Assembly: GCA_020725805.1 (NCBI GenBank)
Contig: DYEF01000095.1
Span: 1-27,716 of the forward strand
Reading direction: 5' to 3'
Length of the DNA stretch: 27,716 nt
Source of the DNA: Bdellovibrio sp.
GTDB taxonomy: Bacteria > Myxococcota > SpSt-1050
In this document: positions 465-5,045 of the stretch, one piece after another
Layout: every line of letters starts with the position of its first letter
Numbering within the stretch: the first letter of the stretch is position 1
Program-made: the position numbers and the translations under genes
Notes under the pieces: model-generated
What the model was told of the DNA's origin: nothing
The model's input: only the letters and a program-made list of their open reading frames with translations
Databases searched by the model: none

Positions 465-1202
465 TTAGGACTTTGCAAGAAGAAAATACTCCTGATTTCC
501 TTTTGAGCCCCTGACTCTTGATGGTTTTATATCAACAACAAAAAGGTCTAAAGAGGTAAGAAAATCCTGAATATTACTGAGTACAGAATTTATAGTCTCA
601 GGTTCATCAATTAGTCCACCCTTTTTTACCTCATCTCTTTTTGCCTCAAATTGAGGTTTTACAAGAATAAGCATCAACCCGCCCTTTTTAAGTAATTTTA
701 CTGCATTGGGAATAATTTTTTTTACCGAAATAAATGACACATCCATAACAATCAGGTCAAATTTATCTTCTATCACAGAGACATCAAAATTTCTGAAATT
801 ACACCTCTCAAAAAGGATTACTCTCTTATCCTTTCTGAGGGAATAATCTAAAATCCCATATCCTACATCAAAGCCGTATACTCTTATAGCGCCATGTTTT
901 AACAAGCAATCTGTAAATCCTCCCGTAGAAACACCTATATCCGCGCAGATAAGCCCTCTTACATCCAGATTGAAATCAGAGAGAGCCCCCTCTAACTTCT
1001 CGCCTCCCCGCGAGACATATCTCTTCTTTTTTAAGACTATTTCTGCATCTTTTTCAATTAAGCGGTGAGGAGTCTTTATTGTCTCATTATTTACAGATAC
1101 TTCCCCTGAAAAAACAAGTGACTGAGCCTCTTTTCTATCCTTAGTTAGTCCCCTTTCAACAAGCAGGTCATCAAGCCTTATCTTCTTTGTTTTCTCTTTC
1201 AC
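465..1202 (-). CDS. tlyA: TlyA-family rRNA 2'-O-methyltransferase (hemolysin-A-like)
   Basis: The TlyA family methylates the 2'-OH of cytidines in 16S and/or 23S rRNA using SAM. The 245-residue product has an N-terminal S4 RNA-binding domain (about residues 7-65, RLDDLLVERGL onward), the linker motif SRGGEKLEGAL (64-73), then an FtsJ-type Rossmann domain with SAM motif DIGVSTGGFTDC (88-99). K69, D154 (VMDVSFIS) and K182 (LVKPQFE) match the catalytic residues of the family. I chose GTG at 1202 because it begins just before the S4 domain and 13 bases after the ssnA stop; a TTG at 1280 in the same frame would add 26 residues overlapping ssnA and lies outside the domain. No strong Shine-Dalgarno precedes the GTG. 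Last gene of the DPD-like/ssnA operon; a functional link with those genes is not obvious. Confidence 0.9.
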   Translation of the reverse strand: MKEKTKKIRLDDLLVERGLTKDRKEAQSLVFSGEVSVNNETIKTPHRLIEKDAEIVLKKKRYVSRGGEKLEGALSDFNLDVRGLICADIGVSTGGFTDCLLKHGAIRVYGFDVGYGILDYSLRKDKRVILFERCNFRNFDVSVIEDKFDLIVMDVSFISVKKIIPNAVKLLKKGGLMLILVKPQFEAKRDEVKKGGLIDEPETINSVLSNIQDFLTSLDLFVVDIKPSRVRGSKGNQEYFLLAKS

Positions 1203-1215
1203 TTTACAAAAAAGT

Positions 1216-2541
1216 CTAAAATCTCTCCCAGAGTTTCTTCGAAAGCTCTCTCGATTTTCTGTATATCTCCTCTTCATCAATATCCAGATTAAGTTTTTTA
1301 TTTTTCATCAGGACCCTTCCGCCCACGATGGTCGTATCAACAACCTCCTCAGATATACCATAAATTATATGACCCAAAACAGTATTCTCATTAAACTCAG
1401 TAGGCGGGATATAGTCAATCAATACTATATCAGCAACAGCACCTTCGCTAATCTCTCCAAGCCTGACCCCAAAATGCTCTGATGCAAACTCGGGATTATT
1501 AAAAAGAAGTGTACGGGCAACTTCCATAAAACCGGCACTCGGATTATTCTGTCTCAGATGCTGTGTCCAGAGAGCAACACGGAGTTCCTCGGGCATATTG
1601 ACTGTCATTGCATCGGTGCCAAGCAGAACCTTTATACCTTTTTTGCTCATACCCACCACATCAGCAATTCCAACTGCATTATTCAGGTTTGACTGAGGAT
1701 TGTGGGCAACATAGGAACCCCTTCTGGCAATTATGTCCATCTCCTTTTTATCAATATGAACACAATGCGCGAGTATGCTCTTGTCATTTAATATCCCAAA
1801 TTTATTCAGTCTCTCAACCACTCTCATACCGAATCTTTTCAGCGAATCCATTTCGTCCGATATTGCCTCTGCACAATGGATATGAAACCCGGCACCAAGA
1901 CTATTGCCGGTATCCGATACTTTCTCCAGTGTATCATCATTCAAAGTAAAAGAGGCGTGAAGCCCGAACATCGCCTTTATGTATTCCGAATTTTCCTTCT
2001 TTGACCATCTGATGAACTCCTCATTCTCCCTTATACCTTCATCTCTGACCTTTTTGCCGTCTCTGTCGGAGACCTCATAGCAGCAGGAGACCCTGAGTCC
2101 CGCAATCGTTGCCGCCTTTGCAATTTCGAAAAGTGAGCCGCTGATTGCAAACGGACTTGCGTGGTGGTCTATCAGTGTCGTCGTCCCGTGCTTTATTGCA
2201 TTTATCATCATAACAATTGCAGAGTAATAAACATCCTTTAAAGACAATTTCTTGTCGAGTCTCCACCAGAGATTTTTCAGGACCTCGTTGAAATCCTTCG
2301 AGGGTTTTGCCTTTCCGAGCCCTCTCACCATTGTAGAATAGAAATGCATATGATTATTTATAAAGCCCGGCATAACCACTTTGTTTTCCGCATCTATTAC
2401 TGTTGTATACCTGCCCATAAGCTTCTTCGACGGGGCAATCATTAATATTCTTCCGTTCTCGATCAGAACAGAATGATTCTTCAGTACTCTGTTATTCTTA
2501 CCGAGTGTAATCACTGTTCCGTTCTTTATCAGTATCGACAT
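1216..2541 (-). CDS. ssnA: SsnA-type aminohydrolase (amidohydrolase superfamily)
   Basis: A 441-residue cytosolic metal-dependent hydrolase of the cytosine deaminase/chlorohydrolase group. Metal ligands are visible: H64 and H66 (NNHMHFY), H220 and H222 (FHIHCAE), H259 (LAHC) and D310 (LLGTDAM). The segments LKNLWWRLD (88-96) and LIDHHASP (123-130) are, from my knowledge of the family, characteristic of E. coli SsnA, as is the length (442 in E. coli). SsnA belongs to gene clusters for anaerobic purine/uric-acid breakdown, where it is thought to hydrolyse a purine-derived amino or amide group; its exact substrate is unsettled. ATG at 2541 has a strong GGAAGGAG site. It starts 14 bases after the DPD-like gene and is surely co-transcribed with it. 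Family call is firm, substrate is not. Confidence 0.88.
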   Translation of the reverse strand: MSILIKNGTVITLGKNNRVLKNHSVLIENGRILMIAPSKKLMGRYTTVIDAENKVVMPGFINNHMHFYSTMVRGLGKAKPSKDFNEVLKNLWWRLDKKLSLKDVYYSAIVMMINAIKHGTTTLIDHHASPFAISGSLFEIAKAATIAGLRVSCCYEVSDRDGKKVRDEGIRENEEFIRWSKKENSEYIKAMFGLHASFTLNDDTLEKVSDTGNSLGAGFHIHCAEAISDEMDSLKRFGMRVVERLNKFGILNDKSILAHCVHIDKKEMDIIARRGSYVAHNPQSNLNNAVGIADVVGMSKKGIKVLLGTDAMTVNMPEELRVALWTQHLRQNNPSAGFMEVARTLLFNNPEFASEHFGVRLGEISEGAVADIVLIDYIPPTEFNENTVLGHIIYGISEEVVDTTIVGGRVLMKNKKLNLDIDEEEIYRKSRELSKKLWERF

Positions 2542-2555
2542 AAAAAACTCCTTCC

Positions 2556-5045
2556 CTATTTTTCATTTAGCATTTTCAGTTCCTTTTCGGTTCTCTCCCT
2601 CATATACAATGCCCCGGCAAAGCACTTCTGAACACATATAGAACATCCGATACACTTCGCAGGGTCTGTATAGGGGATTTTTTTGCTATTGAGTGAAATC
2701 GCAAGATACGGACATCTTGTACAGTTGCCACAGTGCTGACACAATTCTTCTATTACCTGAGAAATCTTCTTTTTAGAGCTCAGTTCCATAAACGGCCTTA
2801 TCGGATCCGGCAGTGCAGCACCCCTGAGTTCAGCGATAGAGTTAAATCCACGCGCCTTCATCAGATAACTGACACCCATCATAAGGTCGTCGATAATTCC
2901 GTATCCGTACTTCATCACTATCGTGCAGAACTGCACCGTATTTACCCCGAGCGCAAGAAAGTCTGCCGCAGCCTTGTAATCCATAGGACCGCCGTTACCT
3001 GATACCTCCACACTCATTTTCGAGACGTTTGCCAGTGTAAGGTAACTTATCGGCAGAACCCCTTCACCGCTCATTCCAACAATAATACCCTCTTCCCACT
3101 TTGTTTTTTCACCCTTCCTGAAAGCAAGTGTCGGGAATGTATTTGCAAGAGTGATTCCGGCCTTCTTTCCCGGATACTTCTCAAAGACCTCCTTTATTGC
3201 ACTGACAATCGGATAAATGGAAGTAACTGCAGCGGTCAGCTTGAAGAGTTTCGGCACATCGGGGTCTGAGACCTGCATAACCCAGTCTATTATCTTTGCC
3301 GTAAGTTCGGGGTCCTGCGAGACAATATCCCCTTTTGTACCGTCTCCGCCCTGCGGACAGCTGAGACTATATTCAATCGCTTTAACACCAGCCCCTTCAA
3401 GTTTCTTTGTATTCGACTGCCAGACCCTGCTGTCCTCCTCGTCGTGCCCTGTAACAGGCCCTCCTGTGGATACAATAGTAAGTCTGTCGGGAAATTCCTT
3501 TACAAGCCTCTCAGCCTCCTTTGCAACCCTCTCAAGCGGATGTGCAGATACATTATCGCAGTTTGCATAGGTGGATTTCGAGAACGCAAACATATACTCG
3601 GACGGGATATGAATCGGCACGTTGTCAAATGTAGTTTTCATTACACCACCTGCCCAGCCCGCCTCATAAGCCTTTCTCATCTGTTCATAACCGTCGGACG
3701 GGGGTGCCGCCGAGAGAATAAACGGAGATATAATATCCTGCCCGAAAAACCTTGCATTCACAGGAACCGGTGTCTTTACGAGCCCCTTCAGCACATATAC
3801 ACTCTTGAAATCCTTTCTGAACTTCATCTGTCTCTCACCCTTAAGATATGCATCAATTTTCATTGCTGCGTTCTTCCCGCTCGCCACCGCCTCGACCACT
3901 GTCTTCGGACCATTTACTAAATCCCCGGCATAGAAGATTCCCTTCTTCTCGACCTTATTAAACGAACCCCTCGCACCTATTGACTGGACTATCAGGTCAA
4001 ACCCATCCCTTCTCTGCTCCGAGCCTTTTACATCTTTTACGAGTGAAGGATGAAATTTTTCATTCTCTTTCAGGAAGACCTTTATAGTTGAAAACGAGAG
4101 TTTTTTACCTGTCTTTTTAATATGAGTAAGTCTTGTCCGGGTTGTAATGTGTATATTATACTCAATGAGTTCCTCAAACTCCTTTTTGGTCAACGGAAGT
4201 TCAGAGAGATTTTCGAGGGCAAATAATTCTACCAGATTTGCACCATTCTCTCTTGCAACAATAGCACAATCCACGGCAACGGCCCCTCCGCCAACGATGG
4301 CGATATTCTTACCCCTAAGTTTCAGTCTCTTATGCTCTCTCAGAAAAGTTATCCAGTCGACTGTATTTTCTATACCTTTGATGTTTAGACTAAACGGTTT
4401 GTCAAGACCTGTTGTCACAAGGACTGCATTGAATTCGCCAAGAAGCGTTTCTGCGTTTTCGATTCTGGTCTTACTCTTTACCTTTATATTACCGAGCGAA
4501 AGCAGAAATTCGATGTCGGAATTCAGGACTCTCCTGTCAAGTCTCGAATCAGGTATAAGATTGCACATACCTCCAAGACTGCCTGACTCTTCAAAGATTG
4601 TGACCTCATACCCCATCTGGGCGAGGAGAGCCGCGGCTCCGAGTCCAGCCGGACCTCCACCCACAATTGCCACCGGGAACGAATTGGGCTCTGCCATATC
4701 GAACCTGGGGAGTGCACCCATCTCTTTGGCCTTCTCAATGATAGTTGCCTGAACCGCAGGGATATTGACCGGATTGTCAAATGTCTTTTTCGAACAGGCC
4801 GCCATACAGTGTCTGTCGGGACATACAGCACCGCAGATTCCGCCGAGAGGATTTGCCGAATAGATCAGTGCAGCTGCTCTCTCGAAATCAGACGGATAAA
4901 ACTTCTTTGCGGCCATAATAAAGTCTGCGGGAGAGCAGTGGGAGGGACAGGCCTCTCTGCATGGTTTCTCCTCACAAAACTCACACCTCTCAATCTCAGA
5001 TTTCAGCTGTGCATCAGTCAGAAATTTTATTTCTTTTCTCTTCAT
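2556..5045 (-). CDS. Dihydropyrimidine-dehydrogenase-like flavoprotein (PreT-PreA type fusion)
   Basis: An 829-residue multi-cofactor oxidoreductase. Order: N-terminal GltD/DPD-type Fe-S domain with CEFCEEKPCREAC (21-33) and CGAVCPDRHCMAAC (71-84); FAD site VGGGPAGLG (128-136); NAD(P) site VGGGAVAVDC (251-260); FAD closing motif FYAGDL (371-376); a DHODH-like FMN barrel (about 425-745) with the catalytic-Cys motif LSCPQGGDG (561-569) and ANT (634-636); then two [4Fe-4S] motifs, C769-C772-C775-C778 and C798-C801-C804-C808. This is the domain order of mammalian DPD in one chain; E. coli splits it as PreT and PreA. The catalytic Cys is kept (C563), but the substrate Asn before it (N668 of human DPD) is Ser560 and the N609 region differs, so uracil may not be the substrate. 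Start is ATG 5045 (AAAGGAG, spacing 6); the frame stays open to 5081 without a site. First gene of an operon with ssnA and tlyA. Confidence 0.85.
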   Translation of the reverse strand: MKRKEIKFLTDAQLKSEIERCEFCEEKPCREACPSHCSPADFIMAAKKFYPSDFERAAALIYSANPLGGICGAVCPDRHCMAACSKKTFDNPVNIPAVQATIIEKAKEMGALPRFDMAEPNSFPVAIVGGGPAGLGAAALLAQMGYEVTIFEESGSLGGMCNLIPDSRLDRRVLNSDIEFLLSLGNIKVKSKTRIENAETLLGEFNAVLVTTGLDKPFSLNIKGIENTVDWITFLREHKRLKLRGKNIAIVGGGAVAVDCAIVARENGANLVELFALENLSELPLTKKEFEELIEYNIHITTRTRLTHIKKTGKKLSFSTIKVFLKENEKFHPSLVKDVKGSEQRRDGFDLIVQSIGARGSFNKVEKKGIFYAGDLVNGPKTVVEAVASGKNAAMKIDAYLKGERQMKFRKDFKSVYVLKGLVKTPVPVNARFFGQDIISPFILSAAPPSDGYEQMRKAYEAGWAGGVMKTTFDNVPIHIPSEYMFAFSKSTYANCDNVSAHPLERVAKEAERLVKEFPDRLTIVSTGGPVTGHDEEDSRVWQSNTKKLEGAGVKAIEYSLSCPQGGDGTKGDIVSQDPELTAKIIDWVMQVSDPDVPKLFKLTAAVTSIYPIVSAIKEVFEKYPGKKAGITLANTFPTLAFRKGEKTKWEEGIIVGMSGEGVLPISYLTLANVSKMSVEVSGNGGPMDYKAAADFLALGVNTVQFCTIVMKYGYGIIDDLMMGVSYLMKARGFNSIAELRGAALPDPIRPFMELSSKKKISQVIEELCQHCGNCTRCPYLAISLNSKKIPYTDPAKCIGCSICVQKCFAGALYMRERTEKELKMLNEK

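Follow-up and report, generated by a model that had tools for sequence, protein, structure and literature searches.

A flavoenzyme of dihydropyrimidine dehydrogenase architecture encoded beside ssnA as a candidate replacement for YgfK in reductive urate degradation

The anaerobic urate pathway was solved in 2025 in gut bacteria and has been demonstrated in E. coli and C. difficile (Li et al. 2025, PMC12507026). In that study, yanthine gave no detectable product with E. coli YgfK alone; the combination of YgfK, SsnA and NAD(P)H yielded ureidomethyl-hydantoin, and the authors suggested that hydrolysis by SsnA pulls the reduction by YgfK. The SsnA partners listed there are YgfK, UacX, which comprises a barrel and an Fe-S part only, and, in Chloroflexota, an F420 enzyme of the luciferase family, lineages of this phylum being said to have the F420 enzyme only; the presence of SsnA in Elusimicrobiota was also noted. 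Here we describe a gene pair from a stretch of 27,716 nucleotides of Bdellovibrio sp. (GTDB lineage Bacteria; Myxococcota; SpSt-1050; assembly GCA_020725805.1, contig DYEF01000095.1, designated C92 of genome G000), hereafter the window, in which ssnA follows the gene of a flavoenzyme with the architecture of dihydropyrimidine dehydrogenase (DPD). Judged from sequence, the pair would carry out the second and third steps of reductive urate breakdown, with the DPD-architecture enzyme in the place of YgfK, a reading to which we assign a probability of roughly three in four.

Both genes are on the minus strand, where an initial annotation of this DNA had located them. The flavoenzyme (P0001, 829 residues), a proposed NAD(P)H-dependent yanthine (2,8-dioxopurine) reductase, is read from 5045 to 2556 starting with an ATG preceded by the leader AAAGGAGTTTTTTATG, and ssnA, coding for a 441-residue amidohydrolase (P0002) with a proposed role in opening the purine ring once reduced, is read from 2541 to 1216 with the leader GAAGGAGTTTTTTATG. 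The TAG of the former and the ATG of the latter are 14 bases apart (2542 to 2555), as previously counted, and this spacer holds the ssnA ribosome-binding site GGAAGGAG; the leader is of the same type as in the reductase gene, the strong leader AAGGAGTTTTTTATG being common to both. The identification of SsnA, until then made from the sequence alone, was borne out by scores of 544 bits against NF005540 (cut-off 444) and 499 bits against TIGR03314 (cut-off 455.5), and the metal-site motifs NHMHF (63), GLHASF (193), HIHCAE (220) and LGTDAM (307) are present. The 3' end of ssnA is overlapped over 65 bases by the open reading frame of a TlyA-like rRNA methyltransferase (465 to 1280, minus strand) when the latter is counted from its first TTG; its real start is probably further in.

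Architecture and substrate site of the flavoenzyme

The domain search returned, in a single chain, a Fer4_20/GltD-like region, Pyr_redox, a DHO_dh-like barrel and two [4Fe-4S] motifs, and the closest solved structure, pig DPD, aligned along the entire chain, so that the order read initially was upheld. The GltD/PreT-like half (residues about 1-403; 3840 to 5042, minus strand) contains Fer4_20 and Pyr_redox_2, aligns to residues 453-848 of E. coli YgfK and shows 32% identity to PreT. Its Fe-S cysteines are C21, C24, C29, C33, C71, C75, C80 and C84, the invariant Q99 falls opposite the Gln ligand of DPD in the alignment, and homology predicts an FAD site at GGGPAG129 and an NAD(P)H site at GGGAVA252. 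Then come the dihydroorotate dehydrogenase (DHODH)/PreA-like FMN barrel (residues about 424-751; 2793 to 3777, minus strand), with K470, N495, S560, C563, K602 and N635 invariant, and the two C-terminal [4Fe-4S] motifs (C769, C772, C775, C778 and C798, C801, C804, C808; 2616 to 2741, minus strand). An AlphaFold2 model built from an alignment with 47 relatives has a mean predicted local distance difference test (pLDDT) score of 90.1, and its sole inner stretch below 50, residues 566-572, lies directly past the active-site Cys, where DPD has a mobile loop. The top 39 Foldseek matches of the model are all pig DPD chains (best E 5e-57, template modelling score 0.82 on the query), and VIA-align superposed it on 1gt8 with a Z of 36.8 and a root-mean-square deviation of 3.3 over 785 residues; on the strength of these matches the predicted DPD architecture spans the whole chain and not one domain alone.

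The residues of the substrate site were compared across the family alignment, pig DPD, 22 PreA-model proteins of the window's phylum and E. coli PreA. Pig Cys671, Asn609 and Asn736 correspond to C563, N495 and N635, all invariant in the family; the region of Asn609 had been said to differ, but this residue is itself retained and only its neighbours differ. The codons of S560-L561-S562-C563 (3357 to 3368, minus strand) encode the conserved active-site Cys and, at the position of pig Asn668, a Ser that is found in 47 of 47 family members, both as first read. In DPD, Asn668 belongs to the substrate site. A Ser also occupies this position in the UacX of Cetobacterium and in one group of PreT-PreA fusions from Myxococcota, and its occurrence in three SsnA-associated barrels, as against Asn in the pyrimidine enzymes, suggests that it may be tied to a purine-type substrate. 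A further difference within the family concerns the residues that close the second strand of the NAD(P) domain (275-281; 4203 to 4223, minus strand), which read Leu-Glu in most members and Tyr-Arg-Arg in some; the former resembles NADH enzymes and the latter NADPH enzymes, suggesting that both forms exist within the family. Since P0001 has Leu-Glu, NADH is the better guess for its electron donor.

In a barrel tree of 25 family members, 23 PreA proteins, pig DPD, UacX and PyrD, the family formed a single clade (Shimodaira-Hasegawa-like approximate likelihood ratio test, SH-aLRT, 100) whose branch is about 3 changes per column long, neither nested among the Asn-type PreA nor next to DPYD. Its sister group (99) is that of the Ser-type PreT-PreA fusions, which themselves exceed the PreA cut-off. 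The enzyme might be thought an ordinary single-chain dihydropyrimidine (uracil/thymine) dehydrogenase, a fused PreT-PreA standing by chance beside a dihydropyrimidinase-like amidohydrolase, as the full-length DPD fold and domain order, the retention of Cys563 and of the counterparts of pig N609 and N736, and the lack of any PreA above cut-off in its own genome would allow. This is improbable, given that P0001 reaches 199.6 bits against the PreA equivalog NF006183 (cut-off 335), that Asn668 is replaced throughout the family, that the family forms a separate long-branch clade, that canonical PreA and the DPD-like enzyme occur together in three Myxococcota genomes (G036, G037 and G052), and that the neighbouring genes are ssnA, ygeY, ygeW and xdh. 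Canonical PreA/DPYD identity was rejected because of the score, the tree, the Asn668 substitution and co-presence with PreA; in the tree the barrel lies outside that clade, contrary to one of the two outcomes that the initial annotation had named as refuting it.

The Ser-type fusions deserve a separate remark. Two of them adjoin a xanthine-dehydrogenase-like gene, and their host genomes mostly have an SsnA homologue. The Myxococcota family f5 (L155:7023-9512, minus strand; L156:506-3037, plus strand) is a PreT-PreA in one chain that carries Ser in place of Asn668 and adjoins xdhL-xdhS, possibly yet another purine reductase mislabelled PreA.

Linkage with ssnA and exchange with YgfK

When GTDB genomes were scanned for P0001, 80 loci at 53-82% identity were returned, 54 of them with ssnA within the locus, mostly directly downstream after gaps of 7 to 130 bases. 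The linked loci are distributed over at least ten phyla, among them Ignavibacteriota, Bacteroidota, Verrucomicrobiota, Elusimicrobiota, Myxococcota, Chloroflexota, Hydrogenedentota, Acidobacteriota, Kiritimatiellota and Lentisphaerota, so that a linkage confined to the window genome, the other refuting outcome named in the initial annotation, is ruled out; of the remaining loci, many are contig ends and nine are from Cloacimonadota. SsnA scored above cut-off in 20 of 20 enzyme-carrying genomes tested, including four of four from Cloacimonadota, whose ssnA lies away from the enzyme gene. In the window's phylum, the enzyme (above 50% identity) was found in six of 58 relatives, and SsnA above cut-off in all six carriers against three of the 52 others (hypergeometric 2e-6, relatedness ignored). 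It could be argued from the nine Cloacimonadota loci, in which ssnA is not adjoining, that the enzyme runs oxidatively or acts on an unrelated metabolite and that its proximity to ssnA reflects co-inheritance only; since adjacency is retained in these many phyla at 49-69% SsnA or 53-68% reductase identity, and the Cloacimonadota genomes tested keep SsnA, this is the least credible of the explanations weighed here, and a very remote one.

The recurrent neighbours of the pair are ygeY, ygeW, a hydantoinase gene and those of an XdhA-like Mo-hydroxylase and a [2Fe-2S] subunit, together with MocA-like, XdhC/YqeB-like and threonine-synthase-like genes and that of a 485-residue pyridoxal phosphate (PLP) enzyme. 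Operons like those of L005, L006, L052 and L055 have the order reductase-ssnA-ygeY-PLP-(hydantoinase)-xdh-ygeW, and a Cloacimonadota contig (L107) carries the pathway genes from ssnA onward in one run. YgeY was found in 17 of 18 enzyme-carrying genomes tested and YgeW at full score in 12 of 18, the remainder having a weaker homologue; a molybdenum-cofactor hydroxylase was present in 16 of 16 and a hydantoinase-like protein in 18 of 18. By homology, this neighbour set is that of the reductive urate pathway as demonstrated in those two species, E. coli and C. difficile.

Beside some of these pairs other genes were observed. An 8-oxoguanine deaminase gene accompanies the pair in Elusimicrobiota and Holophagaceae (L056:6521-7888, minus strand; L019:6537-7931, minus strand; L021:12026-13420, plus strand), the L056 protein scoring 655 bits (cut-off 532), and is a possible local source of urate. 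In two Chloroflexota loci (L026:4117-12933 and L029:2507-11973) the DPD-like enzyme and SsnA stand with a luciferase-like PF00296 gene and with CofC, CofD and CofE of F420 biosynthesis. A Bacteroidota contig (L009:1213-2517, plus strand) has a second SsnA in a cluster with the DPD-paired one, 43% identical to E. coli SsnA as compared with 33% for that of the window.

The relation to YgfK was addressed with a model search of 30 genomes, 24 of them carriers of the enzyme. YgfK scored above cut-off in none of these 24, where matches were limited to the GltD-like part, and the sole near-complete YgfK below cut-off came from a genome without the DPD-like enzyme (G059; 86% complete, ygfK and ssnA on one contig). 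This genome and G037 are two species of one Myxococcota genus, with SsnA 72% identical and colinear flanks; the gene next to ssnA codes for the DPD-like enzyme in G037 and, in G059, for a YgfK 36% identical to that of E. coli. The SsnA tree places the G059 protein within the DPD-paired group (SH-aLRT 97 with G037 and 99 with G052), and because of this nesting a partner swap next to a vertically inherited ssnA appears the simplest history. The same-genus swap and the lack of YgfK in the 24 carriers support the earlier proposal that the enzyme may stand in functionally for YgfK and act on a purine-derived ring.

P0001 is not a divergent YgfK, which is ruled out by its domain order and by its score against TIGR03315 (160 bits, cut-off 835, with the GltD-like part alone aligned). 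As to YgfK itself, the domain order given in the initial annotation, a barrel followed by the GltD-like part, stands in so far as the GltD-like part of the E. coli protein (residues 453-848) comes after a long N-terminal region; the 440 residues of the latter match DHODH-type barrels weakly, with hhalign E values of 0.0065 against PreA (probability 6%) and 0.022 against the DPD-like family (2%), which is compatible with a possible homology to the barrel.

Remaining steps of the pathway and proposed mechanism

In the window's own genome, contig C72 carries ygeY followed by a threonine-synthase-like PLP gene (L101:8282-9481, minus strand), C42 carries ygeW (667 bits, cut-off 500) followed by the gene of the 485-residue, cysteine-synthase-like PLP enzyme (L102:7856-9313, minus strand), and C48 carries hydantoinase, xdhL and xdhS; with these genes the predicted pathway is complete in outline. 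Several observations weigh against assigning the pair to steps 2 and 3. These pathway genes are split over four contigs; the hydantoinase (300 bits against 393) and Mo-hydroxylase homologues are below the curated cut-offs; the tree program gave a long-branch warning, so that the exact attachment of the family is unsure; and YgeX (TIGR03528), the E. coli-type diaminopropionate ammonia-lyase, was found in none of the 30 genomes tested, and therefore the downstream end must differ. It probably uses other PLP enzymes, and one of the two just mentioned, both of which recur in the clusters, may be the replacement lyase.

The substrate could also be another reduced purine. A pair that belongs to a related branch of purine breakdown and there reduces and opens a purine other than yanthine (e.g. 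xanthine, urate or a further 8-oxopurine) would account for the divergence of the hydantoinase and Mo-hydroxylase homologues, for the absence of YgeX and for the 8-oxoguanine deaminase next to the pair in Elusimicrobiota. That deaminase, however, would itself yield urate, the entry compound of the pathway; SsnA, YgeY and mostly YgeW exceed the cut-offs of their families, in keeping with the proven yanthine pathway, and the enzyme was swapped directly with YgfK beside an orthologous ssnA. Such a branch is unlikely, though less so than a pyrimidine reductase.

For the preferred assignment to steps 2 and 3, we infer the substrate, the electron donor and the role of Ser560, yanthine being named from Li et al. 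2025 (PMC12507026). By homology with DPD and YgfK, NAD(P)H would hand electrons to FAD, from where they would travel by way of the [4Fe-4S] clusters to the FMN of the C-terminal barrel, which would reduce yanthine to its dihydro form with Cys563 as acid; Ser560, being smaller than the Asn668 of DPD, may make room for the fused imidazolone ring. SsnA from the same operon would then hydrolyse the reduced ring and so draw forward a reduction that is itself unfavourable, as has been suggested for YgfK and SsnA, and the tight reductase-ssnA operon fits such a coupling of reduction and hydrolysis. The other steps would be encoded elsewhere in the genome by the Mo-hydroxylase with its [2Fe-2S] subunit, the hydantoinase, YgeW, YgeY and a PLP lyase.

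On a wider scale, we lean towards the existence of an unnamed class of NAD(P)H-dependent yanthine reductases with DPD architecture, which would have arisen separately from YgfK and UacX, from an ancestor of the pyrimidine-reductase type via the Asn668 change, and would serve the reductive breakdown of urate across environmental phyla that include Elusimicrobiota, Ignavibacteriota, Cloacimonadota, Acidobacteriota, Myxococcota and Chloroflexota, in which the reductase and the final lyase have gone unrecognised. If true, the anaerobic urate pathway extends to many environmental phyla and its key dearomatising step is explained in the absence of YgfK; an annotation as 'dihydropyrimidine dehydrogenase' may then hide a purine enzyme.

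Comparison with known systems

In the accessible parts of Li et al. 2025 (PMC12507026) a single-chain SsnA partner with DPD domain order was not found, and the PF01180 label used there would lump such an enzyme with UacX. An earlier description is that of 'dehydrogenase X1' by Barba et al. 2013 (PMC4016543), a family of DHODH/DHPDase type near ssnA, hyuA, ygeW, ygeY and xdh, a likeness in family type and neighbours; sequences, domain order and organisms are absent from its text, and X1 may be UacX, the DPD-order family or both. The DPD-order architecture, its spread and the in-place exchange with YgfK appear to be undescribed in the accessible literature.

YgfK (TIGR03315) is, like P0001, a partner of SsnA, holds the same pathway position by gene context and has been swapped with it in one Myxococcota genus; their GltD-like FAD halves are about 28% identical, and both have an FMN site and Fe-S clusters (those of YgfK as given in PMC12507026). 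They differ in that the GltD-like part of YgfK follows a 440-residue N-terminal region, whereas in P0001 it comes first and the barrel second, and the barrels are barely comparable by sequence. UacX of C. difficile, as described in PMC12507026, resembles P0001 in its DHODH/PreA-type barrel with two [4Fe-4S] clusters and in being encoded with SsnA; it lacks the FAD/NAD(P)H half, ferredoxin having been suggested, whereas P0001 has a full GltD-like half. Sequence comparison, made with the Cetobacterium plasmid homologue, gave the same Ser at the Asn668 position and a barrel about 23% identical, with the active-site Cys loop gapped in the alignment. With DPYD and PreT-PreA, P0001 shares the whole-chain fold and order, the cluster Cys, the barrel Lys, the catalytic Cys, N609 and N736; it is set apart from them by the change of Asn668 to Ser, by the distinct loop SLSCPQGGDGT and by a clade of its own. 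If the proposed function is correct, the comparison would offer a clean case of one fold, altered at a substrate-binding residue, shifting from pyrimidine to purine reduction.

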